From positions 372,001 through 436,000 of the forward strand of contig JAZGUH010000715.1 in NCBI GenBank assembly GCA_037893225.1: a stretch of 64,000 bases of DNA. Direction: 5' to 3'. The notes below the pieces were generated by a model. It saw nothing but the letters and a program-made list of their open reading frames with translations, did no database searches and was not told the DNA's origin. This document shows positions 1,180 to 60,100 of the stretch, piece after piece. The stretch comes from Hippasteria phrygiana. Taxonomy: Eukaryota; Echinodermata; Asteroidea; Valvatida; Goniasteridae. The position numbers and the translations under genes were made by a program. The first letter of the stretch is position 1. Each line of letters opens with the position of its first letter.

Positions 1180-3170
1180 TATAATAGGACCCCCCTAATT
1201 CTTATTAAATTGTATGTGTTAGGCCCCTATTATAAATTAAAATTGAATTAAAACGTTTTGGGCCCTCAATGTAGATTAAAATGTTAGCATTTTATTTTAA
1301 AGGATACTGGCCTAAAACCGAGACAAAATGGCCTGAGATTTTACTAGTAAAATACCAGTTTGAGAAACTGTAAATTAATCATTCCTCGATTCTATGAAAC
1401 CTGAGGCTTCGTTTTATGCTTGTTATATTTCCAAAATGTCTAGGGAAGTGCACAAAAACTGGTGTCAAACTTGACTTTATTATTTTTATTGGCCGATAAA
1501 ATTGACGAGTCCATTTATATTTCTGTCATATCTGTGCGTTATCGATAGCCAGCATAAAACTGTGTAGTGAAATTAATACAATTTTGATACATTTCCCATA
1601 CGCGCACCGCTGAAGTGGTCAAAAAGTGGCGAAAAGTGGCTATTTGACTTTGGCGCCCTTTTCACGCCGCCTTCCCATGATGCACTGCTCAAGTTTTACT
1701 AAAGAAGTTAGAACAAGATGGCGGACAGTGATTGTGCGTGGAATGCAGCAAATTTTTGCAAGAAAAGTTAGTTTAATGAACATTTCGGAACTGTTAGCTG
1801 TATTTTCTGATCATAAACTTATAGATGCTGAGGCAGAGAATGTTTAAGGTAAATTAAGTGTCGTTTCTGGACGTTTTTGACAAGAAATTTTATTATAGAT
1901 GTCGGGATTTTTTCTCGATTAGGCTGCGTCAGCACAGCGTATTTACGTATTGTAACAAGTGCAAGTGTATTGTACCATGGATCCGTCCTCCATGATTGTA
2001 CTAGTCTAACGTTAGGCTAACATTATACATGTAATAGGTTCTGGCACGGCTGAATTTAAGTGTATTTCCTTGCTCTATGATTTAACTGAACTGTACTGAG
2101 AAGTGATGTATGAAAAATAGACCAACTTAATTGACCACCGTTGACTACTACATACTAACGTTAGTACTAAGGAAATGTAAACTCTAGCCAGTCTAGGACT
2201 AACGTTAGGGGCCTAAACATGCTAAAGATAAATTGAAAGTTAAATTAAAAATTATATTCGAATTCAACATTGAGGATACATTAAACATGTTAAATTACTT
2301 TGGTTGCGGACTATAACTTTGAAGAATTTCTAAATTGAACTCTAAAACTAACAAGCTTTTTGACATAAGCCTAACTACAATCAATTTAAATTTGAAATTG
2401 TTCATCAAATTTGTGTTCAGGGTATTGATTTGTTACATGTTTAGAGTTGCGGCCGAAATACCCTAAACATTTCAATATTGTTTGGAATTTTAAACATATT
2501 GGATTAGATTTAAAATTTGAAAGTGGATTTGTATGTAAGTGACCGGAATTAAGGGAGATGCTGGAAGTTTTGTGTAACATTGAGCTTTTGTGTATTTAAC
2601 AATTTCAGATTTTTGTCATACATGTAGTTTGATGCTAATTTTAAATGCGAGGACGCATTTGTATCTTAAGTAGGGGAGAGTGTAACAAAAATCGCTTATT
2701 TTTATTACAACCTACCCATGAGTGAAATAGATTCAGCCAAGTAACATTAGAGTTTGTCTTTAAACGATACAGTCAAAGATGATGCTTATTTGAAAGTTCA
2801 CATTTTATTGTCACTGACTGGACTTACCCACTGTTCGTGAGAATTCATGACAAATCCTTGATGATTATAGATGCATTTAATTAACTTAGATGACTTACCA
2901 ATGAACTTAAAGTTGTTATTCCCTACAGAAAGTTGAGCGAGTTTACGACAGTGATGTATGCATAACGTAACTGGTTAAGGACCGCTGTGAGTTTGTTCAC
3001 AATGCACGTAATGCCGAACACACACATATCTTTTGTGCAGTAATTAGGATTTGTACGTAAAACAAATACTGTACATACTTCTATGCAATCGACTGATCGA
3101 TGTGAGTGACTAATTTGCATACGCTACGCGCAGTCTGGCCAATCCGAGTGCGTTGCCCTAGATTTACGCT
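1180..3170. other. Non-coding stretch with one possible start exon
   Basis: AT-rich sequence with no convincing gene. At 1718 an ATG in a strong Kozak context (aagATGGCGGAC) opens 17 codons before a stop at 1769-1771; a weak donor (GTTAGT) overlaps the end, so it could be the first coding exon of a gene whose other exons I cannot find. The palindrome CTAACGTTAG recurs near 2010, 2157 and 2202. Confidence 0.35.
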
Positions 3171-11250: not shown

Positions 11251-12805
11251 CAGCCGCGAACTCAGCCGCGAACTCAAAAAAACAGAACACATGCAGCAGA
11301 AGGAGCTGCAAAAAATCAACAGATTCTGGAAATACTTTTTTGGTACAGCCAACGAAATTATCTAAATCTTCCACTAAACACAGGTTTTTAGGTTATACAT
11401 TTCCAACCAAGATCAAACAGCACACTTTAGTACCAAAAGAAAGCCAGTAGTATGTTCTTTTAGATTATGAAAGAAAATTGGGAAATATTTAGAATATGTG
11501 TGGTACACTTTTTGTTAAAGAGGCATACTCAAGTACGGGTAAATTACAATACGTACTTCATATTTTGTTAAAAATGACGTGAATTTAATTGACGATTTGA
11601 GTACTAATTAGTAAGCCGAATTAGCTCTATCCAAAATTAAGTCTGCCCATGAATATGTTCTTTTAAATTATTAAATAAACAAGGGAAATATTTGGAACCC
11701 GTGCGGTACACTTTCTGTTAAAGAGGACTAGGTATATACGGGTAAATTACAATACGTTCATATTGGGTGGAAAATGATTTGATTTTAATTAAGCATATGA
11801 GTACTAATTAGTTTGCCGAATTAGCTCTATCCAAAATTGAGTGTGGCCAGGGGTATGTTGTTTTAAATTATTAAATAAAAAAGAGAAATATTTGGAATAT
11901 GTGCGGTACACTTTTTGTTAAAGAGACATACTCAAGTACGGGTAAATTGCAATACGTTCATTTTGGGTGGAAATGATATATCTTTAATCGACCATTTACG
12001 TATTAATTAGTTGGCTGAATTAGCTCTATCCAAAATTAAGTCTGCCCAGGTATATGTTCTTTCAGATTATGAAAGAAAATTGGGAAATATTTGGAATATG
12101 TGCGGTACACTTTTTGTTAAAGAGACATACACAAGTACGGTTAAATTACAATACGTTCATTTTGGGTGGAAATGATGTATCTTTAACCGACCATTTGAGT
12201 ATTAATTAGTTGGCTGAATTAGCTCTATCCAAAATTAAGTCTGCCCAGGTATCTGTTCTTTCAGATTATGAAAGAAAATTGGGAAATATTTGGAATATGT
12301 GCGGTACACTTTTTGTTAAAGACATATCCAAGTACGGGTAAAATAGAATACGTTCATATTGGGTGGAAAATGATGTGATTTTAATTGACCATTTGAGTAC
12401 TAATTAGTTTTCCGAATTAGCTCTATCCAAAATTAAGTGTGCCCAGGGGTATGTTGTTTTAAATTATCAAATAAAAAAGTAAAATATTTGGAATATGTGC
12501 GGTACACTTCCTTTTTAGTAAAAGGTACTGTGACAGTCTTAAACCAATCACATGTACTACAAAATTGCTTCATTTGAAACAGTTACCTTATGAAGATTGA
12601 ATAGGTAAATTAATTTCTTCTGGTACTAAAGTGTGCTATAGGATCTCGGTAGGAAATATATAACCTAAAAAACTGTGTTTAGTGGAAGATTTAGATAATT
12701 TCGTTGGCTGTATCAGAAAAGTGTTTCCAGAATCTGTTGATTTTTTGCAGCTCCTTCTGCTGCATGTGTTCTGGTTTTTTGAGTTCGCGGCTGAGTTCGC
12801 GGCTG
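11251..12805. mobile_element. Foldback element enclosing a 200-bp satellite array
   Basis: Arms of about 195 bp: 11251-11447 (CAGCCGCGAACTCAGCCGCG at the outer end) is the reverse complement, with some changes, of about 12615-12805. Between them lie some 5.4 head-to-tail copies of an AT-rich unit, marked by AAGTACGGGTAAAT or variants at 11531, 11732, 11934, 12133 and 12330, so the period is 197-202 bp. Each unit contains GCGGTACACTTT. No coding capacity. No clear target duplication seen. Confidence 0.7.
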
Positions 12806-13541: not shown

Positions 13542-13847
13542 TCACATCTGGGAACTTTGTTGGGATGGCATGGACTTGAGCATATTTTTAATGGTCATCC
13601 CAAAGGATTTGAAAATACCAGTATCGAAACACGACGGCCCAAAGTGGTCGCTACATAACGCTGAAAAGCTGCTGGGGCTGGACCACTTTGCTCTTGTCAC
13701 CTTCACTTTCGCCGTCCAAATTCTCCAATATTTCGCATCAGTTGCAAATAAATGAAGGCTTACTCCATCCGTCGTTGTTTTGCTGCACCCAGCAGCCACA
13801 CATCTTGTCCACGGCTGTTTCACGTAAATACACTGTACGTAATAAAG
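13542..13847 (-). CDS. THAP-type zinc finger protein (short, 5' end uncertain)
   Basis: The frame is open from 13847 to a TGA at 13542-13544. It shows a THAP C2CH finger: RCVAAGC (C-x4-C), a central Trp pair (YWRIW), a second basic Trp segment (RAKW), then the LCSDHF motif (C-x2-H) and a following FDTG. THAP domains bind DNA sequence-specifically and occur in host regulators and in transposases such as P elements. No in-frame ATG precedes the domain; the frame begins after a TAA, with only a GTG at 13821-13823, so a first exon joined at the acceptor-like TACGTACAG is likely. A strong donor (GTGAGT) overlaps the stop, so a downstream exon is also possible. It sits divergently beside the transposase and could be the terminus-binding partner of the same element. 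That role is inference. Confidence 0.6.
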   Translation of the reverse strand, partial: LYYVQCIYVKQPWTRCVAAGCSKTTTDGVSLHLFATDAKYWRIWTAKVKVTRAKWSSPSSFSALCSDHFGPSCFDTGIFKSFGMTIKNMLKSMPSQQSSQM

Positions 13848-14444
13848 TTAAACGAACGCGCGCGCGAGTTTCTTCACTCCACTGAGGGATGATGACGTCA
13901 TGCAAACATGGCGCCGCCCATGGCCGTGAAAAACAATACGAGAATCATCACAAATTTTCCCCCCAAAAAACGGTTTCCTCGATTCAAAGTCATACAATAC
14001 ATCATCAGATAATCCTTGCATAAAATATTTCGTGAGATTCTGTATTTGTTTTGTTAAATTGATGATCATTCCGGACAAAAATCATCGTTTTGTGCGCTTG
14101 CATGTGTGCGAATAAATGTTTTGTTCACGACGATTTTTCGCTTAGAAAACAGCCCATCATTATGTTAAATGAGTTTTCCCAAATAAATCTTACATGGCAA
14201 ACGGTACAAAATATCATTATATACATCTGTGGCAATTTTTGTTTCTGGGCCAAATTGAATTAATTTGTTTCCGATTTTTTTTATGCACTGTATGTTTGTG
14301 GTCACACGAGAGCACAGCGTACAATCCAATAGGAAAATCCGCGCGAAATTCAAAACGTGTTAGTGTTCCTTTCTCCATGCAAAGACTAACGTTACTACAT
14401 GTATTCTGGCCTACGTTTACGTGCATTCAGAGGCTAATTTCAGC
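13848..14444. promoter_or_regulatory. Divergent upstream region between THAP ORF and transposase
   Basis: About 600 bp separates the two oppositely directed ORFs. It contains one TGACGTCA palindrome near 13892-13900 and no clear TATA box. It must hold promoters for both genes if the element is autonomous; no finer structure is visible. Confidence 0.35.
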
Positions 14445-17400
14445 ATGAGCTTTAATTTTCATATCGATGCACTTTCCAAATTATGCAGAGTTTGTGGAAA
14501 AAGACTGATAAAACCATCAAGCGAACAACGGACATTACAGTGTTGTGAGTATCGGAAGCAAATATATTCAGTGTTTGACATAAGTACATGGGAGGACAGA
14601 CACGAGGAGCACCCTCCAAGGCTTTGCAAAAATTGTGCTAGGAAAATTAGACATGAGGAAGCTGGGACAAGAACATACGTTGAGTTAAATAAATCCACAG
14701 CTCTTCCAAAGTGGATAAAACATACAAGAGTTGGAATTTGCAGCATTTGCACAGACTTTTCAAAACAGTCCAAAGGAGGACGCCCCTCTAGGCTGAAACG
14801 AAATCTGAGACAACTTGAGAATCCAGAACCACCCCTACCATTTCGCCTGTCAGAAGACAATATATTCACATCTGTCATACGAGCAAGTGATGGACTGAGA
14901 GTTATTTCCCCAACACTTGATATTTTGGGGAAAGAGGGCGAAGACTTTCTATACATTTGTGCCCTTTGTCAGTGCATCATCTCCCCTGCCTCTGTGCAAA
15001 CACCATGTCAGCACTATTTCTGTGCACAGTGCTTGTCAGATTATTTCAAGTACATGAAAAGTGCATCACTGCAATGCCCCATTTGTAAAGTGACAGTACA
15101 TTTTGACGAGATTGCTGACAGCCCAAGACTTCTCAAGGTGCAGATTAACAATTTAACTGTAGTTTGTGTCAAGTGTACAAAAATAGGGAAGCTTGAAAAA
15201 TTCTTCAATCATTCGTGCACATCCACACAAGAATCAAGGAAACGCACAGATGTGACCATTGTTGCCACAACCCTCCCCCCTACAAGAGACCAAGAGATAA
15301 TTGAGGCTGCAAATCTTCTTAGAGAGGAGGCTGTCCGACATACAAAAGGACAGCCAATTCCATATGCTATAGAGCAGGCAACAGACCGATGGACTTGGAT
15401 GAAACTGCAACAGGGGGACAAAGTTGCATCACTGAAAACTGGAGGCAAGGTACTTGTAACACAAACACTTTGCAACAACTGATAGACACAAATATGAACA
15501 ATTTATAATTTCAATTTCATTTCCAACTTTATTTCATAAAATGAACAATTTCTCTACCCCATGAATTTAAAATGATAATTTTCTTAAGATGCATACATGT
15601 ATGTGTTGGGTGCAATCAGTTGATCTGCGCGATTGGTCGATTGCGCTGCACTTTCTCGCAATCTGTTGTCCAGGCAAGCATCGGTCGATCGTGCAAGCAC
15701 AGCAGACTTTGCTCGATTAAAACTCAGTAGTTTTGCGACGTGATCTGCTGATCATGCTCAGTAAAAGTTGTGCGATCGGTCGCTTGTGTACAACAGACTT
15801 TTAATCAGCAGTTGGTTTTTGCACAATATGGTTGCACGATTGACCGATACTTGCATGAATGATAGATCAAGACTTTCCAAAGTGCAATTGCAAGATTGCG
15901 CAGATCTACTGATCCCCAACATACATGTCCTATCAACTTGTTTCAATCAATTTTCTTTTTAAAAGCACTTTATCAAAAACAAAACATATCAATACTTTCA
16001 AAGTTTGTTTACAATAATGTACACGATAAAGTTTAAATTTTATCCTAACTGCATCAGATTTTTGTTCTGTTTTTTTTTCAGCCTGCAATCATCAAACAGG
16101 TATCGAGCAGCGCTGTGTTGTCTGATGAACCTCCACTGAAGCGAAGGTCTGCCCACTCCAACAATGACAGATACGAGCCCCCTTCCCCGATGCCCGTCAA
16201 CAAGTCCTTAGCAATGATGAGGGACTGCCACCTAAGCTGGGACCAACTGCGGAAAGTTCGCAGGTACACATACACCACACATTCAAATCATTTGATTTGT
16301 AATGTGTACTAGAGTGCACAAAGGAACATCATGTACATTCTTGTATATAAACATAACACTTACATATTTTCATACTGTCAGGTATGTTGGTCCTTCAACC
16401 ATTGCGTCGGAACGTTCAATGCGTGAGCAACAGCAAGATCTCCTGAAGGACTACATTGTCGGCGAAACAGTGCCACTACAGTTTTCCAGTGCTAAGGCAG
16501 ATGCTGTGGATGGTTATGAGTTCCGCGAAGCTCCCTTTGTCATGGTCAAAAACCTGCCAGCGATGGTACTCGACTACCTAAACAGGCTGGACCGGTACGG
16601 CATGTTTCTCATAGTGTCCCCACATGCAACAGCACATGAAAAATTGCCATCCTTTATTGTTTACATATTACTGCGTTTGTTTTTAGCTACTGTACAAGTA
16701 TATGTACCTAACTGTAATATCCCTTATGTTACTTAAACTTTTAAAACTCAACTAACAGTGAGTTTAGATTTGTATGCACAACTTGTAGTTCATGCGCAAA
16801 CCTCTGTAGTACATGCAGTTGTAGCACCAACTGCACGGTCCTATTCTATGATTCCAACATGGCACCCACGTGAGAAGTAGCTATTGTGTGTATTCTGTTT
16901 AAAATACCAAGTTTTTGCAGAGCATTAGACATCACACTAACAAGCTAACATTACTTTTTAAAAATGCATATAAATAAACAATCAGTACCTGCATATTACA
17001 AATGAAACAATAATATACTGCAGTAAACTAATTTCAAACTGGAATAACCTGCAATAATTGATGATAGTAAAGGGGGCCCTAATATGTTTCAATCTAAGGA
17101 GAATCTTTCTTTAATCTTTCAGAAAGATTCTTCTGGGATCAAAAGGTCAGGCCCTCCTTACTATCAGTAAATTAATACATTACCATTATTTGGTTTTTTA
17201 CTTGATATAGGTGTGGATCCTTAACTTGGCACAATGGTGTGATTCCTTCTAATGAGATCTGGATCAAGATCGGTGGGGATAAAGGTGGCAGCACGTTCAA
17301 GATGGCGTTTGAGATCGCAAATGTTCCAAGGCCCAACAGCCTCAATAACACTGTTGTGTTTGCTTGCTTTGAGGCGGACGATTCCTACATAAATCTGGAG

Positions 17401-20393
17401 AGAACATTACCGAGAGTAACTGACCAAGTGTCTGACCTTTCCAAGCAGAATTGGCAGTAAGTTTTCAAATTTATGTAAACACAGATACAACTTTGCTTCA
17501 TGCATAAAGTTATTTTGAGGGAAAAAAACAATGTTGTGATTATAGGCATAGACACATTACTCAATGGTGCACAGGGGATTTTGGTTGAATGGGGGGTTGG
17601 TGGGGGGCGCATGTTTACAAAAATTGTTTTTAACATTTTTGTCAAAAAAGGTTGTCCCAGAAAATATGTGTCTCTGCTGATTCATGCGACAAATTCAAAT
17701 CACAAAAATGCAAACCTTGAGGGGTACGAGCCACCCCCCCCCCCCCCCCCCCCCCCCACCGGCGGTGCACCACTGTACATTTACTGACAGTGATTGTGAT
17801 GCAACAGCATTCGCAAACCATTTAAATGTAATCATTTAAATGTATTGACAAGCATGATGCATGGCTTTGTTTGTTTGTTTTGTTTCACAGCGGACACACA
17901 TTTCGTCTTTTCTGCTTTGGAGATTATGCACTCCTGACAAAGCTCTATGGTATCTGTGGATCAAATGGTAATTGGGGACTTATTTTCTTAAAAAAAAGGA
18001 GTATTATTTAAAGATCAATATATCCCCCAGTAAGTTTCCCCTGTGGATTGTTTGACAACAATTATTTTGTTTGGGAATTTTTCATTTATCAAAGTAATAC
18101 ACATGTATACTGTAGTACACATGTACACGTTTTTAGCTGTGTAAACAATGTACATGTTCATACACGTAAATTTATAGAAATTAATGTTTTCAATTTTTGT
18201 CATTTATTTTTAGCCCGTTACTGTTGCATCTACTGCCATGCCAGTAAGAAGCAAATGCAACAGCCTCTGTGCCAGAGGGGACCATGCCAAGCTCGAACAC
18301 TGGAGACAATCAACCAGCAGTATGACAACTTTGTGGATGATGGACAAAAGAGACAGAGGGCTAAGGACATCTCATATAGTGTGGTTAATAGGCCAATGCT
18401 TCCTATTGAGGTGGACCATGTGAGTTCTTTTTCTTGTTACATGTATATTGCATATGACTATTGTACATTTTCAACTAAAGCATGTTTTAACTGCTTTTAG
18501 TTGAAAAAATAATGCATGAAAAATTTGGTAGTACATTTCGTGCACTAAATTGTAGCGAGACAAAAGATACTACTAATATGAGATTTTGGCCCACTGTAAA
18601 TTTTAGTTTTCCAAGACCTAGCAAGGGATAACTCTTGTAATTAAAAAAAAAATGTTTCATGTTCTTTCAGGTAATCATTCCCACCCTTCACATATCTCTA
18701 GGAGTTTTTAAGAAACTCTATGATATGTTCGAGGAAGAATGTCATAACCTTGATGTTGATATAGTGAACGAACGGATTGAGGCAGAGGAAGCAGATTCCA
18801 CCACGACCAATTTTGAATGCCAAGTAGCATCAGAAGCCATAAGGAAGGTTCAGCTTGAGAAAAATGTCGAAGAAAAACTGTCTAAATTGGACCAACTCGA
18901 AGAAGAAATACCCATCAACCAGTTACAGGACCCAGGGTCTAGTGCGGTAAAAACAGTGCAGCAACTTAGAGCAGATATAGCTGAAATGGTAAACCATCAA
19001 ATTGTTTACAACTTCAACAATATGTGCATACTGTACATGCACAACACTTGTACATGGATGTATGTTATTTCATGGGGTTAATTATTAATTTTTAGAACAC
19101 GACTTGCCATCTGCGACCCGGTGCTCAAACTTTACGTGCAATTTTAGACAGCAGATTAGATTTGATCTTCTGATCGCAAACGCCACTGCGTGAAAGGATT
19201 TGAGATTTAGTAGAAATGTTAGTACTAAATTTAATTTGTTTTGTTTGTTTTAATCAACACAGCAACAACAAGCTGCTGGATCTGAACTAACCTTTGGTAC
19301 AGGACCCATTGCAAGCAGTCTGGACAACGTCCTTAAATCCCACCATGTTCATCGTCAAGCTTATCATGGGAAGTCGTTCATTGGCAATCACGTCCACAGA
19401 TGTTGTCAGGTAAAGAGAAACAAATGTACATAATTTAATTGAAATATCAAATTCAATTCAACAACTTACAAAAACCTGTGGTACATTTTATAAGGTGACA
19501 TTCTTAGTGATATTCCTTTTTGTGATATGAAATACATGTTTTAAATTCCTTTCAGCCAAAAGTCATCGAAGATCTCACTGAAAGGCCAAGGAAAGTAATT
19601 GAGGAAAGCATGGATGATCTGCCAATTGCAGCACACAGACGTCTACAGAGAACGGCAGGGAAGATTTGTGTTTCATTCAGAAACATTTTCCTAAAATTTG
19701 CTGATGTCCATCATGCAATCAACCATGCCAATAAACTGGACAAATTCAACATTGAGCGGACAGGTATATTAATTTTACAGCTGTATGCAGTGGCGCACCC
19801 AGGAGGGGGGGGGGGGGGCAGCAACGTCAAAAACTCCATCCCCCCCCCCCCCCCCACACTTTTCTAAATTATTTTCCGGGGCAAAACAATCTGGAGCAAC
19901 ATTTTTTGAAAAATGTCAACATTCTTAAAAAAAACAAATTGGTGAGCCCCCCCCCCCCCCCCCCCAAAGTCAAATCCTGGGTGCGCCACTGGCTGTATGT
20001 AAAAAAGAATTGATGTATCTCACATTTGTACAGACATTCATCTTACAGTTGATATGTGTTTTCCTTTATACATTTGTAGATGTATGCATCCAACAGTTCT
20101 TGCATTCATACCGGGAGTTGTTTCCTTCAGCAAGTATTACACCAAAACTTCACTTACTTGAGGACCATGCCGTACATCAGCTGCGAAGCTTCCGAGTTGG
20201 TCTTGGGCTCCTAAATGAGCAGGGAGGCGAACTTCTCCACACAGAATTTAACCGGGCCAGCACAGCTGTACAAGGAATGCGAAATGACTTGGGTAAACTG
20301 ATGAGCGTGATGCGCCGCCACCTGACGAGCACGTTCCCTGAAGTCCACACAGAAATGCCGGCACATCACTCAATCAGAAAAAATGAGTCATAA
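14445..20393 (+). CDS. RAG1-like transposase (N-RAG-TP type), 10 exons, 971 codons, intact
   Basis: Exons: 14445-15449, 16082-16263, 16382-16594, 17211-17456, 17891-17967, 18214-18419, 18671-18988, 19263-19409, 19556-19763, 20080-20393. All have GT/AG borders and phases that join without stops. Residues 1-105 hold C-x2-C pairs (C14/C17, C61/C64, C99/C102) like the RAG1 N-terminal zinc region, then a basic GGRPSR motif (111-116). A C3HC4 RING finger follows (C172, C175, C188, H190, C193, C196, C211, C214) and a zinc finger (C241, C244, H256, C258). The core shows IKIGGDKGG (D490), FCFGDYALL (D560), YCCIYCHA (C579-x2-C582), H892-x4-H897 and LNEQGGE (E914). C-x2-C, H-x4-H and a final NE in this order match the RAG1 core, so D490/D560/E914 are the probable catalytic triad. 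N-RAG-TP is an established invertebrate transposon family with a RAG1-like N-terminus. The ATG at 14445 is the first good one in frame. Confidence 0.8.
15603..15925. mobile_element. MITE in transposase intron 1
   Basis: Ends are inverted: GTTGGGTGCAATCAGTTGAT..CTGCGC near 15605 against GCGCAGATCTACTGATCCCCAAC ending near 15921. The interior consists of degenerate GATCGnnCGATTGG-like words. It lies wholly inside the first intron of the RAG1-like gene. Confidence 0.55.
17575..17788. mobile_element. G/C-tract MITE in transposase intron 4
   Basis: CAATGGTGCAC near its left end is mirrored by GTGCACCACTG at the right, with G-rich sequence next to the left arm and a pure C run next to the right. 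It resembles the hAT-type MITEs at 19788, 29858 and 31139, which share a CAGTGGCG-like end. The target duplication is imperfect. Confidence 0.5.
19780..19999. mobile_element. hAT-type MITE (204 bp) with 8-bp target duplication in transposase intron 9
   Basis: The element is 19788-19991. CAGTGGCGCACCCAGGA at the left is mirrored by TCCTGGGTGCGCCACTG at the right. GCTGTATG stands at 19780-19787 and 19992-19999, a perfect 8-bp target duplication typical of hAT elements. Poly-G and poly-C runs follow the arms. Insertion is after exon 9 and leaves the splice signals intact. Confidence 0.85.
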
Positions 20394-22868
20394 AATTATA
20401 ATGCAATCCAGTGTGTTTGTTTACATGTAATCTACCGGTAAAGTACATGTACATGTATATGTACTTAAAATTACCGAAAGTTCATTAAATGTGCCAGAAA
20501 CGTTTAAAACAGAAGACTAGATTTTAACAAGGCAGATGTGGCACACTCCTCATGGACACAAACATGCCAAGTGGGTTAAGCCTTGTCCATAGTTGCCCAT
20601 AGGCTATGAAAAGTATACTCTCTCTTTTGAATTATACAATGAATCTACATTCAGCATCTATGTCTTTTTGTTGCTCTTCCTAGTTGTGGTACAAACAATG
20701 ACAGGTATCATACATGTACCCCGAACAAGTGGTATTGTTTAGTACTTACCGGCACTACTATAGTACCACTGTAGTTCCTTCGCTCTTCCCAAGAATAAAC
20801 CCAAATCCATACAGCCATAAAGAATTGATCAAAATATAATGAAATAACCTAAAATCTTCATCTATCTAGCCATGAAACAAAGAAGTCAACAGATTCAAAA
20901 ATTCATCATCTTGACAGTGTTCTAGGGCTACTCGGTCACCGAGTCAGTGCATATGACAACATATCCTCTTAACTGTGACATGTTGATTTAGATTTGAAAG
21001 TGCAGTAAATCAGTGCAATGTTGATTTACTCACTGTGCATAGAGTCAGCATGCATGGATACAAAAAAAAATACAACTATGTGCACTTCAAAGAATGTCAT
21101 CAGCAGTACAATACATTTGAACATGTCAAATTCTTGGATGGATAAAATGAACAGATTTTCAGGTTTGAAAATTCTTGAATTTTTCTCCAAGCTGATGCGT
21201 CACTCTCTACTTGTGTAGAGTATCCAATGGGTTCACGACATAATTTGAATTTCTTTATGACCATATGGAGGGCCAAAGGCTGTCAGGCTGGAGCAGGATG
21301 ATGACTTCTCACTCTGCAAAAAACACAAAGAGGAAGATGAGGAATGGAAGTAGAAAATTTGGAATAATTCTTTAAAAATCTAAAATAAATAAAAGGGATA
21401 ATGTTTATCACAAAGTTAATGAAGTGAATACATAGAGCATGTACATAGAATACATGCAAGTGTCCCAACATGATTGTCAATTTACATGTGTAAAATATTG
21501 GTTTCAGAAAAGAACGGTCAATAATTGACGCGTGTATTATACGTTGTACATTTAAGTGACCGTTTCACATTTAATAATTTAAGTGCAAATTCGTTTTGTG
21601 CGGCTGATGATGTTGAATTTCGTGGTGTATATAACAGTCATTACATATTGTTGAAATGTGCGGCTAAGAATACAGTGCAGACTGGTCAGACAATGTATAG
21701 AGTTGGAGTATTAAACTTGGACTCAACAACTGGCATGAGCCTGCCAGTTGTTGAGTCCAAGTAAATCCAACCAATTCATACATGCAATAAAACATTCCCG
21801 GCCAACACGCCTTTTTGAGTTACACAAAGGTTTTTGTTGTTTCCCTCTTTTGTTTTCATTTTATTATAACACTTCTACAGGATCTTCTGTTCTGATATGA
21901 ATATTGCCTAGGCCTACTTATTTGTCAAATGTAACAATATAATTAAGTTATTCATCAATTTGGCATAATGCAACTCGGAGGCACATGACAGCACACGCGC
22001 GTTTACATGCACAAACACTGTACATTGTACCATGTTTTCTTCCTCCATATGTACACGCATGTATGTGTGCAGTCACGGTTGGTAGTGTACAGGTATACTA
22101 GGTCTACATACATAACCGTCCGTGACCGTGTAATTATACGCACGTTTCCTATGCACAGAAGTTGTCAAAATGCCTTGGCCCAAACTTACTATTTGAACTA
22201 AACTGTAACAGAGAACATCTCTTACCCTTGTGTAAATTGATCTTCCTCCAGAAAACTCCAGAAAAGACGACAGAAACACTTGAAAATGACCGCTATTCTA
22301 ACTCGCTGCAAAGGACAGTCAACAAGTGTCGTGCGGTCCCGTTGTTTTTCAACGATATAAAGGGCACAACCTGGTTAAATCTGTGGGGTTCACCAACCCA
22401 TTGTTGTTTATGCCATATTTATGAATATTCATATCTTTGCAGCAAAGGTCACACATTATCCAATCAATGTGATAGGAAATTGTAACCAAGGCCAACGCTT
22501 CCTGGCGAGTGACCCGCTCGCAACGAACAAGCACACGAAAAGTGCTCATTTGCATATCAAAACAGCCTGTACGGGACTTGACAAAGGAGGGCGCACTTGC
22601 CAGCGCTCGAAACAGCCGTGTGTCGGCATGGCCGAAAAACACTATATTTTGCTTAGATTTTGGTCGAAGAATTTTCGTCGTAAAATGTACACACAATGCA
22701 TACCCGTGATGAATGGTCCCACTCAGGGGGCGGAGTAGCTTGGACAAACATTTTCAAAAATTGTTTTCTCATATTTAATCTGGGAAATAATTGTCTCTGG
22801 ACACAAAATATCAGTCAAGATAATACTTTATTGTTTTAAGCAGAAATAATGCAATATAAATCCTAAAT
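20394..22868. other. 3' flank inside the large transposon
   Basis: About 2.5 kb after the transposase stop. An AATAAA lies at 20794-20799. A 132-codon minus-strand frame at 22349-22747 has no recognisable domain. The main structure is the hairpin at 21715. Confidence 0.45.
21715..21762. other. Perfect 21-bp hairpin
   Basis: The 21 bases at 21715-21735 (ACTTGGACTCAACAACTGGC plus A) are the exact reverse complement of 21742-21762, with a 6-nt loop TGAGCC. It lies in the 3' non-coding part of the large transposon. It could be a precursor of a small RNA, a DNA cruciform or a tiny foldback insertion; the sequence alone does not say. Confidence 0.8.
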
Positions 22869-36100: not shown

Positions 36101-39100
36101 GCGGTCTGGTCTTTTAGGTAAGTCCCAATGCTGGGATTCAGGAACTCTTCTTCGTTCTGTAAGTTCTTGGTGATATCGTCCAGCTGTGGTAGGCGGAACG
36201 TGCTGGAGGCTTTCCTCAGTGCGACCTGGTCCTCCATACTAGCCTCCTCTGTGATGTTGGGCAGTCCTAGATATCAGCAAAAACACGGAAAGAATATGTG
36301 ACTTGGGAAAATATTGAAAATCAAGATTATGGTGTTTCCTAAAAGTATCGTAATAGATTTGATGTACTCCTAGCACACACCATAACCTTTTGAATGCTGT
36401 TATAGAGTCATGCTCCTTAAAAATGGGAAATGAAGTACAAAGTAAGTGAATCATGCAAACTACATTTTTAGTGCACAGAATAAAATTACCACAAAAACAA
36501 TCTCCATATTGTATTCAGTTATCAATCTTTGGGATATTAATACAGGCATTTATCTAGACTTGTAACAGCCGCCAAATATGGGGCCCTGTTAGTACGGGTA
36601 TGGTGCTTTTCCCTGGTCTAAGTGCGTGCAAGTGTTGTAATGATTTCCATACTGCAAGATTTGGAAGCTGTTTTCATTCTTGTTAAGTTTAAATCGTGGA
36701 AAAATCTTTTGCATTTTCAAAGTGAACAAAGAAACTGGCAGGAGCGAGATTCGAACCTGCGACCTCCGGAATACCGTACCGGCGCTCTACCAACTGAGCT
36801 ATCTTGCCCTATGTTGGCGGTCTCCCAAAATGTTTTCAGTATCTTTGTTCGGGTGGGCACTAGTCAGACATGCCAGAAGTCATAAACCCAGAATGCCATA
36901 TAGCCAGGGATCACACCCAATTTTACGATACAACCTGGGAAGCGACATTGTGGGGATCACTCAATGAGGATACGACTTCTTAACTTATAATTCGTCAAAC
37001 AATCCACAAGGGAAACTGACTAGGTAAATTTTGAATACATATTTAAAGTGAACAAAAAACTGGCAGGAGCGGGATTCGAACCTGCGAACTCCGGGTTACC
37101 GTACCGGCGCTCTACCAACCGAGCTATCTTCCCTATGTTGGCGGTCTCCCAAATTGTCAGTATCTTTGTTCACTTTGAAAATGTATTCAAAATTTACCTA
37201 GTCAGTTTCCCTTGTGGATTGTTTGACGAATTGTAAGTTAAAAAGTCGTATCCTCATTGAGTGATCCCCACAATGTCGCTTCCCAGGTTGTATCGTAAAA
37301 TTGGGTGTGATCCCTGGCTATACGGCATTCTGGGTTTATGACTTCTGACTAGCGCCCACCCGAACAAAGATACTGACAATTTGGGAGACCGCCAACATAG
37401 GGCAAAATAGCTCAGTTGGTAGAGCGCCGGTACGGTAACTCGGAGGTCGCAGGTTCGATTCCCGCTCCTGCCAGTTTCTTTGTTTACTTTGAAATTTCTT
37501 CTTAATGCAATTTTACCCAAAACAAGGCTAAAAGCAACTCAAGGAACAGAGCTATAAAAAGAATGAGAATCAAAGATACAAGAGGTAGGAATAATATTCC
37601 TCTTGAAGCAGAAAAGATTGTAAGATGAAGGGAAACATGCAGCAGGCAAAGAATTCCATTTTAAAACAAAATGATAATGGCGGGACTGGAAACCAGTCCA
37701 ACATCTATCTAGCAATCTTTCCCTAGTAACCTGTGTGGATGAGTCTCATTTACCTGTGTACAAACATTCCAAGACGTGACGGAAGGTGTTATAAGAGATA
37801 TCGGCACTGATGGTGACCTGGGTCATAGGTTTCTCAAACTGATGACTGGGATCTGGTGTGGCTACATCAAGGATACCAGCCAAACCAGCAATCTTGCCCT
37901 CGTTGACATCCTCCCAGGTGAAGTTCCAGACTTTTGAACTGCTTGCTGTATCCTGGAAAGGGAAACACAGGATGTGCCTGAAACTGATTAAGAAACTTAA
38001 AACAAGGAATGAGTCGAGTCTATAGTTTCCATAGTCACAATGAAGGCTGCAGACTGTCAGGGTAGTGACTGTCACAAGTGAAGTGAGATTATGAAATTAT
38101 TTTGGTCAAATTATGGGGTTTTGTTTATAATAGAATTTCAGGTGAATTTTAAATAAAAGGAACAAGCACTTAAAATAGACACCATTTGATGGAGTGAGTC
38201 TTCATTAGAAGAAATCTTTTGGAATTTTTCTAATTGGTCATTGCATTTGAAGTTACAAGCAATTAAGTTTCGTAAAATGAGGGTTTTTTTTAGCAAAGAG
38301 GTCAAAGGTCATATTTTGCTTTTCTGTATTTCTGTTTTGGCACCGAAAAGATGACTGGAGAAGTGTTATTCTTTCTTTTATCCTTGTCACATGGTATCAG
38401 ACTTGCTCGACATTTAGTTTAAGCTTTGGTATGAAATATAGCTTTTCAAAAGTGCAAACAGAAGTTATAATAATGATCTATTTTGTATAATTAATTAACT
38501 AATTAGGGGTAAATTATGCAAATTTGTCATGTAGACATAGAGAACCTTAGTCAAAAACAAATATCTTAATGAAATTTTAAACAAGTCTGCAAAATCTGGC
38601 TGTTGGGAATGCAAGTAGATCTATACATTTTTAAATAATTACAAAATTTGCATAATTAATTAGCAAATTATGTAAAAATGAGAAGGAAAACGTTTTCGGT
38701 TTTCAATTTGCTGGAAAAAAACGTAATAAATGCAAGCTTTGTTTTGAGAAGAAAGTTCTGAGAAGTGAACCCGACTTCTTTTCTTCATTAACTAATTTGC
38801 ATATTTATACGATATGTGATAAAACAGCACTTTGCAATGTTTTTCGGGAAAACAGTGGTACAGGTACATTTGTATGTATACATATACGGGGGTACATATT
38901 TCGGATGAGGGAAACTGAGAATTCTTCCACGGCACATTTTCGTTTTTATGTGTAAGTTTATTTTGAAAATAATTCGCAGGCAGATCAGATGATGATTAAA
39001 CATTTCTTAAACATCCATTTACTGGTAATCCGCCAAAAATATTGCTGCAGAAAATGTCTGCAAACACAAAAAAATTCCAAACACCCCCATTAAACAAATG

Positions 39101-57184: not shown

Positions 57185-60100
57185 CAGGCCTTGAATTTGG
57201 AAATTTTTAGGGCAAGGCCACTTTGGCCTTGAATGAAGCAAAATTATCGAGGGCACCAAGGCCAGTAGGTAGGGCACCAAGGCCAAATAATATATGGAAA
57301 AGGGGCACGGAGGCTAAATGCAAATATTAATACTAATTATATTTGTATGCCCCGCTGTGTACTTGCATTGGTTGAGGCCCTAATTGGACTACTCTGCATC
57401 ATCCTCATTGATGATGTCAGAGTCTAACGCTACATCAGGAATGAGATCACTGTCAGTGTCAGAAGTAGCACTGGCAGTGCTTGATGCATCGGAGTCGGCC
57501 ATGTCGTTCACTTGAGAAGACCTGGGACCATATGGCTTGATATGAGGGCGTTTGAAGCGTCTCCCACTTGACCACCATCTTGCTACAGCTGCTTCAGGGT
57601 TGAAGAATTGTGGCTCAGGCCCCTGACTGCAGATCCGAAGCAAATCCTCAATGGTGCTTGTTTTCAGGCTGAGGCGCCAGTCTCCCAGGATTCGCTTAAT
57701 ACATGAGAACTGGCGTTCAACTTGGGATGTTGCAACAGGCAGTACCAATACGATGCGTACAAGATGTAGGAAGTTGCAGTATTTGGTACTCTTCTCCACC
57801 AACATCTTTTTCCAGAGTGGGAGGAACTTGTCATTCTTGTGATGCTTTTTGATATCATGTTTAACCTTCATCCACTCTCGTTCAACCTGTGTGATGTCAC
57901 ATCCTTTCTTGATGAGCAGTGGTTTGAAGTGGTCACACATCTCTTGAATTTCATCCAAGCCATAGTCAATCAGTTCATCTGACTCTGATGGGAAGTTTTG
58001 TGGATCCAATACTTCAGTCGCCATGAGCACAGGGTCATCCTTAAAGCTGGCAAACCTGTTGCCAATACATGTGATGATCTTGTCCACAATGTCCTCTGTC
58101 TGTCTGTTGAAGGTGTCTGTAGCTTGGGCTGCAATTTCAACATCCTTAAAGATGAAGGTTGACCGGCTGTCATCACCAACTGCTTCGTTTACTGCAGCGA
58201 GAACAGGTCTCAAATAGGGACCTGCTTTGTTTTTTTTCCTTCTTAGTGATGCCTGTGCCAGCACCACACTGCCTCTAACAGAAGAAAGAGGCAGGTCATC
58301 CCGCTGAAACTCCAAGGAAAGCTCGGCCATATCATCTACTAAGTCCTGGTATAAGGCCATATGAAGCACAAACTTGCAGGATTTGAGAAGCTTGAGGTAG
58401 CTCTTCATCTTTGCCGCATCAGCAGCAGGTATATCTTTACGCTGGCCAGTAGCTTGCTCCTCAAATTGTGTGGCCACACACTGGTAGTTAGTAGCTAGGC
58501 ATGTGAGGGCTTTTCGCCTATGGTCAATCCATCGCGTACCCTGTGACCGCACTGGTTTTACAACATGCTTCTTCAGCATGTCAGCCACAGCTTTCAGCTC
58601 CCGCCACCTCTTTGGAGATCTCTTGTACAGATAGTACAGTCTCATCATGAGCTCATCAATCTACACAGATTTAAAAAAGAAAAGAAAAAAAAGCCAAATT
58701 AATTCTTATAAATACATAATTTAACAATCATTTACATTCTGGCAGGCATAACAGATTTTTAGATAAATATCCTCAAACTTTCAGATGTGTATTTTTGTAA
58801 TTTAAGTAATTTGTGTTTATCTCTGCCCTTGCTAATAACAATTTATTGTATTTTCTCCATCAGAAAACTAACCTGGGTGAAATATGTATCCTTAAATGCA
58901 TCTTTTAAGGATAGCTCCAAGCGGTGTGCTACACAGTGCATCTTAATCATCCATGGGGCTACGGTACTGTGTTGGAACTTTGTCAAGATGCCATTGACCC
59001 TGCCAAAGTTAACTGAGGCACCATCTGCAGCTACAGAAACCAAACTACTGCTCAAGTCCAGATGACACTCCTCACACTTCTGGTTGATGGCCTTGTAAAC
59101 CCCATCTGAATCACATTTGCTGGGCTCAGTAATTCTGTGCAGTGGAGAAATAAATAAAATAATATATTACAATATATAAGGAAAAAAGCTATTTATCCAA
59201 GTTTTTATCGTTAAAACCAAATTTCAGATAAATTGAACTCAGTGTGAAAACATCACTGTTAAGTAAAGAAACTGAAGGACTAAAATGTATGCATGTTCAA
59301 TTGTGCTACTCATTGTCACACAAACTTACCCAAGCAGCTTTATCTTAGGAACACCATCCTCAATTATTTTTATGCTTACTACCTCCTTTTCAGACTGTGA
59401 TTTATCCGAGCTCCCATCAAAAAGCAGTGCGCAATAAAAACTGTCCTCGTGGAACTGCCTCTGTATGTCGTCACGCATGACTCCGGCAATCTGGCCAATA
59501 AATGACCTACATGCTTTGTTATTGTTGTAGGTGGTTCCCATGTGGACCCCATGTTTCTGCTCAATGGCAATGAGTGTTGGGTATAGTGTAAATGGCAGCT
59601 CGCAGTAGGCGATAGTATAGGCGATATCGAAGAGGCGACACATTCTCTCCTTTGTTTGTAGTGTCATTTCATTTAGGTTTTGGAGGACAGATGCTTCCTT
59701 CCTCTTGCCCTCCTTGGCCCTTACTGCAAGCATATGTGTCCTAGAAAGACTGTTTTTGCAGTGTCTTTCTTGATGCTCACAACAATAAGTGCACCAAAGT
59801 TTTTTTTACATATCCATTACTGCTGTTATACTGGATCCAATCAAATCCCCAGTCATCAACTGTCGCAGTCTTTGTCTTGCGGATAATGTTTGCCTGGCTG
59901 GTGGCAGTGTGTGATGAAGATGGACCTGGCTGGTCATCAGTTTCCATTTGATCTGCAGTGCCAGAGGATGGGGGTGACACCCCAACCTGTAATGGTTCCG
60001 ATGATGGTTTTGGTGATGCAGGTTTCCTATAATCAGAAAATACATAGGGAATTAAGGAGGTCTTAAAAGTAAAAGTAGAAATACTATTAACTTTTGATTA

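Follow-up and report, generated by a model that had tools for sequence, protein, structure and literature searches.

The window analysed here is a stretch of 64,000 nucleotides from the sea star Hippasteria phrygiana (C715:372001-436000), and our subject is an element within it whose ten-exon gene (14445..20393) had originally been read as an apparently intact RAG1-like transposase. The gene lies inside a unit larger than the feature first noted, a transposon of 8,811 bp at window positions 13810-22620, bounded by terminal inverted repeats (TIRs) and 4-bp target site duplications (TSDs). We consider it very probable that this is an autonomous cut-and-paste Chapaev DNA transposon of the RING-bearing subgroup, very recently mobile, whose sole recognised gene encodes a transposase of 971 amino acids (aa). 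It belongs to an already known kind, the RING-bearing Chapaevs, and this copy is unusually complete and carries its RAG1-like front half in one exon. The features of the locus are the following.

13545..13808, minus strand: interrupted target, a THAP-domain reading frame (Pfam THAP E=2.5e-8), with its ATG beyond the right end of the transposon at 22629-22627
13806..13809, unstranded: left TSD, TGTC, 4 bp, from the end comparison with other copies
13810..22620, plus strand: whole Chapaev-type transposon, 8,811 bp; homology to the C692 and C465 copies begins and ends here (plus chance duplication bases), flanks unrelated
13810..13821, plus strand: left TIR CACGGCTGTTTC, 12/12 bases equal to the right end
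14445..15449, plus strand: exon 1, aa 1-335, with Chapa zinc domain, GGRP linker, RING and C-x2-C/H finger; phase-0 donor after ..KTGGK
14454..14768, plus strand: RAG1_imp_bd/Chapa zinc domain, aa 4-108 (Pfam PF12560 E=2.2e-4; HHalign to mouse RAG1)
14958..15089, plus strand: C3HC4 RING, aa 172-215
16082..16263, plus strand: exon 2, aa 336-395; the DUF1280 match starts here at aa 375
16382..16594, plus strand: exon 3, DUF1280/core (joined frame and Pfam)
17211..17456, plus strand: exon 4, KIGGDKGG with D490, putative first catalytic Asp
17891..17967, plus strand: exon 5, GDY with D560, putative second catalytic Asp
18214..18419, plus strand: exon 6, C579-x2-C582
18671..18988, plus strand: exon 7, LH motif (PTLHISLG) and the long helices that separate the last Glu from the second Asp (helices from the model of homologue P0001)
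19263..19409, plus strand: exon 8 (joined frame)
19556..19763, plus strand: exon 9 (joined frame)
20080..20393, plus strand: exon 10, H892-x4-H897 and E914QGGE918
20394..22620, unstranded: 3' part of the transposon, in which no second gene was recognised; on neither strand does a stop-to-stop frame exceed 119 aa
22609..22620, minus strand: right TIR (GAAACAGCCGTG read on the plus strand), matching the left end
22621..22624, unstranded: right TSD, TGTC, 4 bp, from the end comparison with other copies

Gene structure, ends and genomic copies

The original prediction of ten in-phase exons with 971 codons and no stop is borne out by the joined exons, which give 2,916 nt (971 codons plus stop) with no internal stop and nine predicted introns, all GT..AG, and D490, D560, C579, C582, H892, H897 and E914 lie where it had placed them. 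Across the aligned sequences, the window protein included, D490 is invariant (14/14), while D560, C579 and C582 are kept in all 12 rows that reach them and H892, H897 and E914 in all 11. Nearly as conserved as E914 is E918 (11 of the 12 rows with a residue there), whose spacing and place in the helix make it a better candidate than E914 for the catalytic Glu of the proposed acidic triad. Miniature inverted-repeat transposable elements had also been noted in the introns, in agreement with the inverted-repeat arms at 15615-15647 and 15881-15913 of intron 1. The three other copies described below can be aligned to 3,004-3,031 of the 3,033 intron bases, so the intron inserts predate the spread of these copies.

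The genome searched (944 Mb in 1,285 contigs) carries the sequence of the element at three further, unrelated sites, on contigs C692, C465 and C461, with 99.3-99.6% identity over 8.7-8.8 kb. The C692 and C465 matches extend from window position 13806/13807 to 22622/22623 between unrelated flanks, whereas that of C461 has its right limit at 22621 and, owing to an assembly gap, its left limit at 13962. The TSDs differ by site (TGTC in the window, GGTA in C692, TGGC in C465) and measure 4 bp in the three copies with both ends sequenced. In the window, the flanks joined minus one TSD read ATG CCG ACA AGA TGT.., which places the insertion in codons 2-3 of the THAP frame and thus separates the start codon of this frame from its first Cys. 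All four copies retain the open frame and all splice sites; relative to the window copy, C692, C465 and C461 show 3, 14 and 17 substitutions over aligned bases, no indels in exons (those elsewhere being uncounted) and 1, 3 and 3 amino-acid differences, respectively. Such near-identity at unrelated sites, with the same open frame, argues that the element moved recently. Judged from sequence, the transposon reading is established by the uninterrupted gene, the matching ends, the 4-bp TSDs and the copies at unrelated sites, and the frame is more than chance, given the same open frame and splice sites in three copies, the exon blocks seen in related families of the same genome and the residue conservation.

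Several observations weigh against it. Residue 929 is T in the window copy alone and R in the other three, and the differing codons are few and mostly non-synonymous (non-synonymous/synonymous 3/1 against C461, 1/0 against C692 and 3/2 against C465). An older partial relative (L012, contig C521), which lacks exon 1 and aligns at 94.7% over 3.3 kb from window position 15453 in intron 1 to the end of its contig, differs from the window at 11/963 bases in exons 2-6 and 84/2,231 in introns, with a ratio of non-synonymous to synonymous rates (dN/dS) of 0.76, not different from 1 (p=0.7). The intactness of the gene is thus argued from recency and not from measured selection. Furthermore, the structure model used for the fold of the core is that of the homologue P0001 from Asterias amurensis and not of the window protein.

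Family assignment and resemblance to RAG1

Pfam DUF1280 (PF06918) matches residues 375-544 with E=2.5e-20, and each of the 14 sequences in alignment A1, the window protein among them, belongs by its match to the same family, which corresponds to Chapaev transposases, placed in the same clade as RAG1 (PMC3985635). Chapaev hallmarks are a TSD of 3-4 bp, CAC/GTG ends, C(2)C, LH and H(4)H (PMC4079192), and all are found here: CAC..GTG TIRs matching at 12/12 bases, 4-bp TSDs, C579/C582, PTLHISLG and H892/H897. As in the RING-bearing subgroup, the Chapa zinc domain (aa 4-108) is followed by the RING (aa 172-215), although the Pfam RING models and RAG1_imp_bd (PF12560, 21.3 bits vs a curated cut-off of 23.3) matched below cut-offs. 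Membership in Chapaev3 was discarded, the TSDs being of 4 bp and not the 3-bp TWA of that group.

The closest database proteins are P0001 (48% over 99% of the length) and P0002 (46% over 98%), both from A. amurensis, with weaker relatives in Branchiostoma. Within the genome, the DUF1280 search gave at least 103 matches, counted exon by exon, around which 8 loci plus 6 adjoining stretches were retrieved. Seven of 13 loci (L023-L029, on contigs C113, C624, C378, C47, C2, C374 and C169) hold DUF1280-family frames that lack a RING motif and form a lineage whose N-terminus differs, with a single open frame of 977-988 aa at five of these loci; the frames on C113, C624 and C378 are of 988 aa each and identical over the first 60 residues, for which reason this RING-less lineage also looks young. 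Four others (L030, L033, L034 and L035) have the RING inside a long first exon, the matched parts of L032 start at aa 335, and in L031 nothing matched the window protein. In a sister RING family (L016) the ends are CACGGCTGTCCCGC and the TSD is AGCT.

The resemblance to RAG1 had been proposed to run from end to end. It holds for the order of zinc motifs, the RING and the core fold, the core being 16% identical to RAG1 by structure, but not for the sequence of the RAG1 core. Against the PDB, a profile of the 14 sequences matched mouse RAG1 100-429 with E=6.8e-21 and the RAG1 core at just -4.0 bits. With hhalign, the N-half aligned to mouse RAG1 with P=3.8e-18 (246 columns, 21% identity), the part before the RING alone with P=1.3e-10 and the RING part alone with P=2.1e-10, compared to 2e-5 for the best of 60 shuffles with Cys/His fixed and 0.055 for the best of 60 full shuffles. 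Against RAG1 698-1006, P was 0.12 over 27 columns, equalled by 4/60 shuffles, the hhalign comparisons taking in RAG1 up to 429 and from 698 to 1006; in these 27 columns D560 falls opposite D708 of RAG1, and C579/C582 opposite C727/C730. No counterpart was seen of the nonamer-binding domain, the VIA alignment beginning at RAG1 459 and the region having had no separate test. The C-x2-C/H-x4-H pair, initially taken as a RAG1-type mark, does not serve as one: C(2)C and H(3-4)H are common to EnSpm, Mirage, Chapaev, Transib and RAG1 (PMC12730594), so the pair marks the CACTA-Mirage-Chapaev-Transib clade and is no specific pointer to RAG1. The initial reading thus survives in part, the order being RAG1-like and the element a Chapaev and not a RAG1, ProtoRAG or Transib element.

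A true RAG-like transposon (ProtoRAG/RAG1L, i.e., RAG1-like, of the Transib superfamily), representing the missing RING-bearing 'TransibVDJ' type, seems very unlikely and is largely refuted by the ends and the TSD, which has 4 bp instead of the 5 bp of Transib. Recombination signal sequence heptamers have a CACAGTG-like consensus, which the terminal CACGGCT matches at the initial CAC alone. To this are added the DUF1280 assignment, with no RAG1-core family listed by Pfam for the window protein at E<=10, the scores of the RAG1 core given above, and the lack of a second long frame for a RAG2-like protein; in 20394-22620 no RAG2-like partner was seen and no frame exceeds 119 aa, although the stretch was not searched with a Kelch profile and a partner in short exons is possible. 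More improbable still is a domesticated single-copy host gene, an identity with which ten exons and an uninterrupted frame would agree, since there are three other near-identical copies at unrelated sites, two of them with both matching ends and their own TSDs (the third having the assembly gap at its left end), and the insertion lies inside a THAP frame.

As a Chapaev transposon, the element would move by a transposase that dimerises via its RING/zinc region and holds the two 12-bp ends in a synaptic complex of the RAG1/Transib type. Cleavage would depend on a DDE RNase-H site formed by D490, D560 and E918 or E914, a hairpin step on the flanking DNA being likely by analogy with RAG and Transib, and insertion would follow with a 4-bp stagger. 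The RING may serve as a ubiquitin ligase, as in RAG1.

Exon 1 and the two halves of RAG1

The RAG1-like half corresponds exactly to one exon, with its phase-0 donor after ..KTGGK, and under a strict pattern the same single-exon N-half and phase-0 donor appear in 8 of 13 sibling loci, a figure that includes the three near-identical copies. Three protein searches provided 32 database relatives: 10 with RING and without the GGDxG core motif, 19 with the core motif and three with neither. Nine of the 10 RING-without-core proteins (P0023 is the exception) read through TGG[RK], or the variants TQGK and TLGK, into Val-Ser, the translation of a splice donor GTNAGN, and end 0 to 28 residues after it; this read-through from TGG[RK] into Val-Ser is found in none of the 19 relatives with the core motif. 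The nine short RAG1-like proteins are most likely, as their sequences suggest, unspliced first exons of RING-Chapaevs. One of them, P0028 from Patiria miniata, bears the name V(D)J recombination-activating protein 1-like, and it and the eight similar short 'RAG1-like' database entries are probably misannotated gene pieces. In Aplysia, a RAG1 N-terminal-like half on a mobile element has been described as N-RAG-TP (Panchin & Moroz 2008, via PMC8355894, PMC2996935 and PMC13337447), and it may be another RING-Chapaev first exon. In the literature searched, which leaves aside most subscription papers and probably Repbase Reports, we met no mention of the exon-1 point.

The distances of the two halves hint at separate histories within RAG1. 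The N-half of mouse RAG1 is 17-26% identical to 15 aligned relatives, as near as Chapaev subfamilies are to one another (about 16-31%), while its core is more distant (16% by structure vs about 28-40% between Chapaev subfamilies); these identities come from differing alignment methods and the distances are saturated, so that their inequality hints at separate histories and does not show them. Both this inequality and the greater conservation of the core than of the N-half in 28/28 pairs of eight Chapaev sequences (P0012 and P0013 reaching just 177 core columns and P0007 without RING) speak against the account in which the N-halves of RAG1 and Chapaev co-descend with their cores from one ancestor, Transib and some RAG1L having lost the RING (Kapitonov & Koonin 2015). 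We nevertheless give that account about an even chance, the cores sharing their fold, the domain order being shared, and amphioxus and mollusc RAG1L having C1-C3 and RING (PMC7204232). Somewhat short of even we place a separate origin of the RAG1 N-half and core, in which a single exon with the N-half would have passed, in either direction, between a RING-Chapaev and a Transib-type transposase. The single phase-0 exon of the window and its sibling loci and the unequal distances agree with it; on the other side, beyond saturation and mixed methods, RAG1 is placed in the N-half tree with 47% support, and the argument is based on the exon boundaries of Chapaevs. More tentative again is the wider proposal that stand-alone 'RAG1 N-terminal' genes or elements, perhaps N-RAG-TP among them, form no transposon of their own but are RING-Chapaev first exons, with the core in exons further on. 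In that case a Transib-type transposase would have acquired, or given up, the N-half of RAG1 as one phase-0 exon.

The exon structure offers a concrete route by which the N-terminal half of RAG1 could travel as a unit. It also casts doubt on the two-transposon account (Transib plus N-RAG-TP), which a 2026 review (PMC13337447) still gives. With its mapped ends and four near-identical copies, this apparently intact and very young RING-Chapaev could also allow the biochemistry of a RAG1-like transposase to be tested directly.

Neighbouring features and comparison with known systems

Elsewhere in the window, inverted arms of 192 bp (94%; 11251-11442 and 12614-12805) surround 5.3 copies of a 199-bp tandem repeat (11451-12509), probably forming a non-autonomous mobile element. 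A frame of 423 aa on the minus strand (57392-58660) has a hAT dimerisation domain (E=1.1e-5), and three tRNA-Thr(GGT) genes, two on the minus strand and one on the plus strand, cluster at 36736-37473.

RING-bearing Chapaev transposons were reportedly described by Kapitonov and Jurka in 2007. Chapaevs with a RAG1-like zinc (Chapa) domain and RING are presented by Kapitonov and Koonin (2015; PMC4411706), within the literature searched the only source in which we found this architecture. The window element shares with them the Chapa domain, RING, DDE core, CAC..GTG ends, C(2)C, LH and H(4)H and shows no difference in kind, its particulars being ten exons, 8.8 kb and four near-identical open copies. 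P0001 and P0002 of A. amurensis, compared as proteins and named just uncharacterized protein, have the same architecture and motifs. Vertebrate RAG1 and the RAG1L of amphioxus ProtoRAG are alike in zinc-motif order, RING, RNase-H core fold and C-x2-C/H-x4-H, but go with a 5-bp TSD and other ends, whereas the window element has a 4-bp TSD and no recognised RAG2-like partner. Transib is without the N-terminal zinc/RING half, and its TSD is of 5 bp vs 4 bp here. Finally, N-RAG-TP is described as wholly N-terminal-like sequence (PMC8355894), while in the window element that half forms the first exon of a complete transposase gene.
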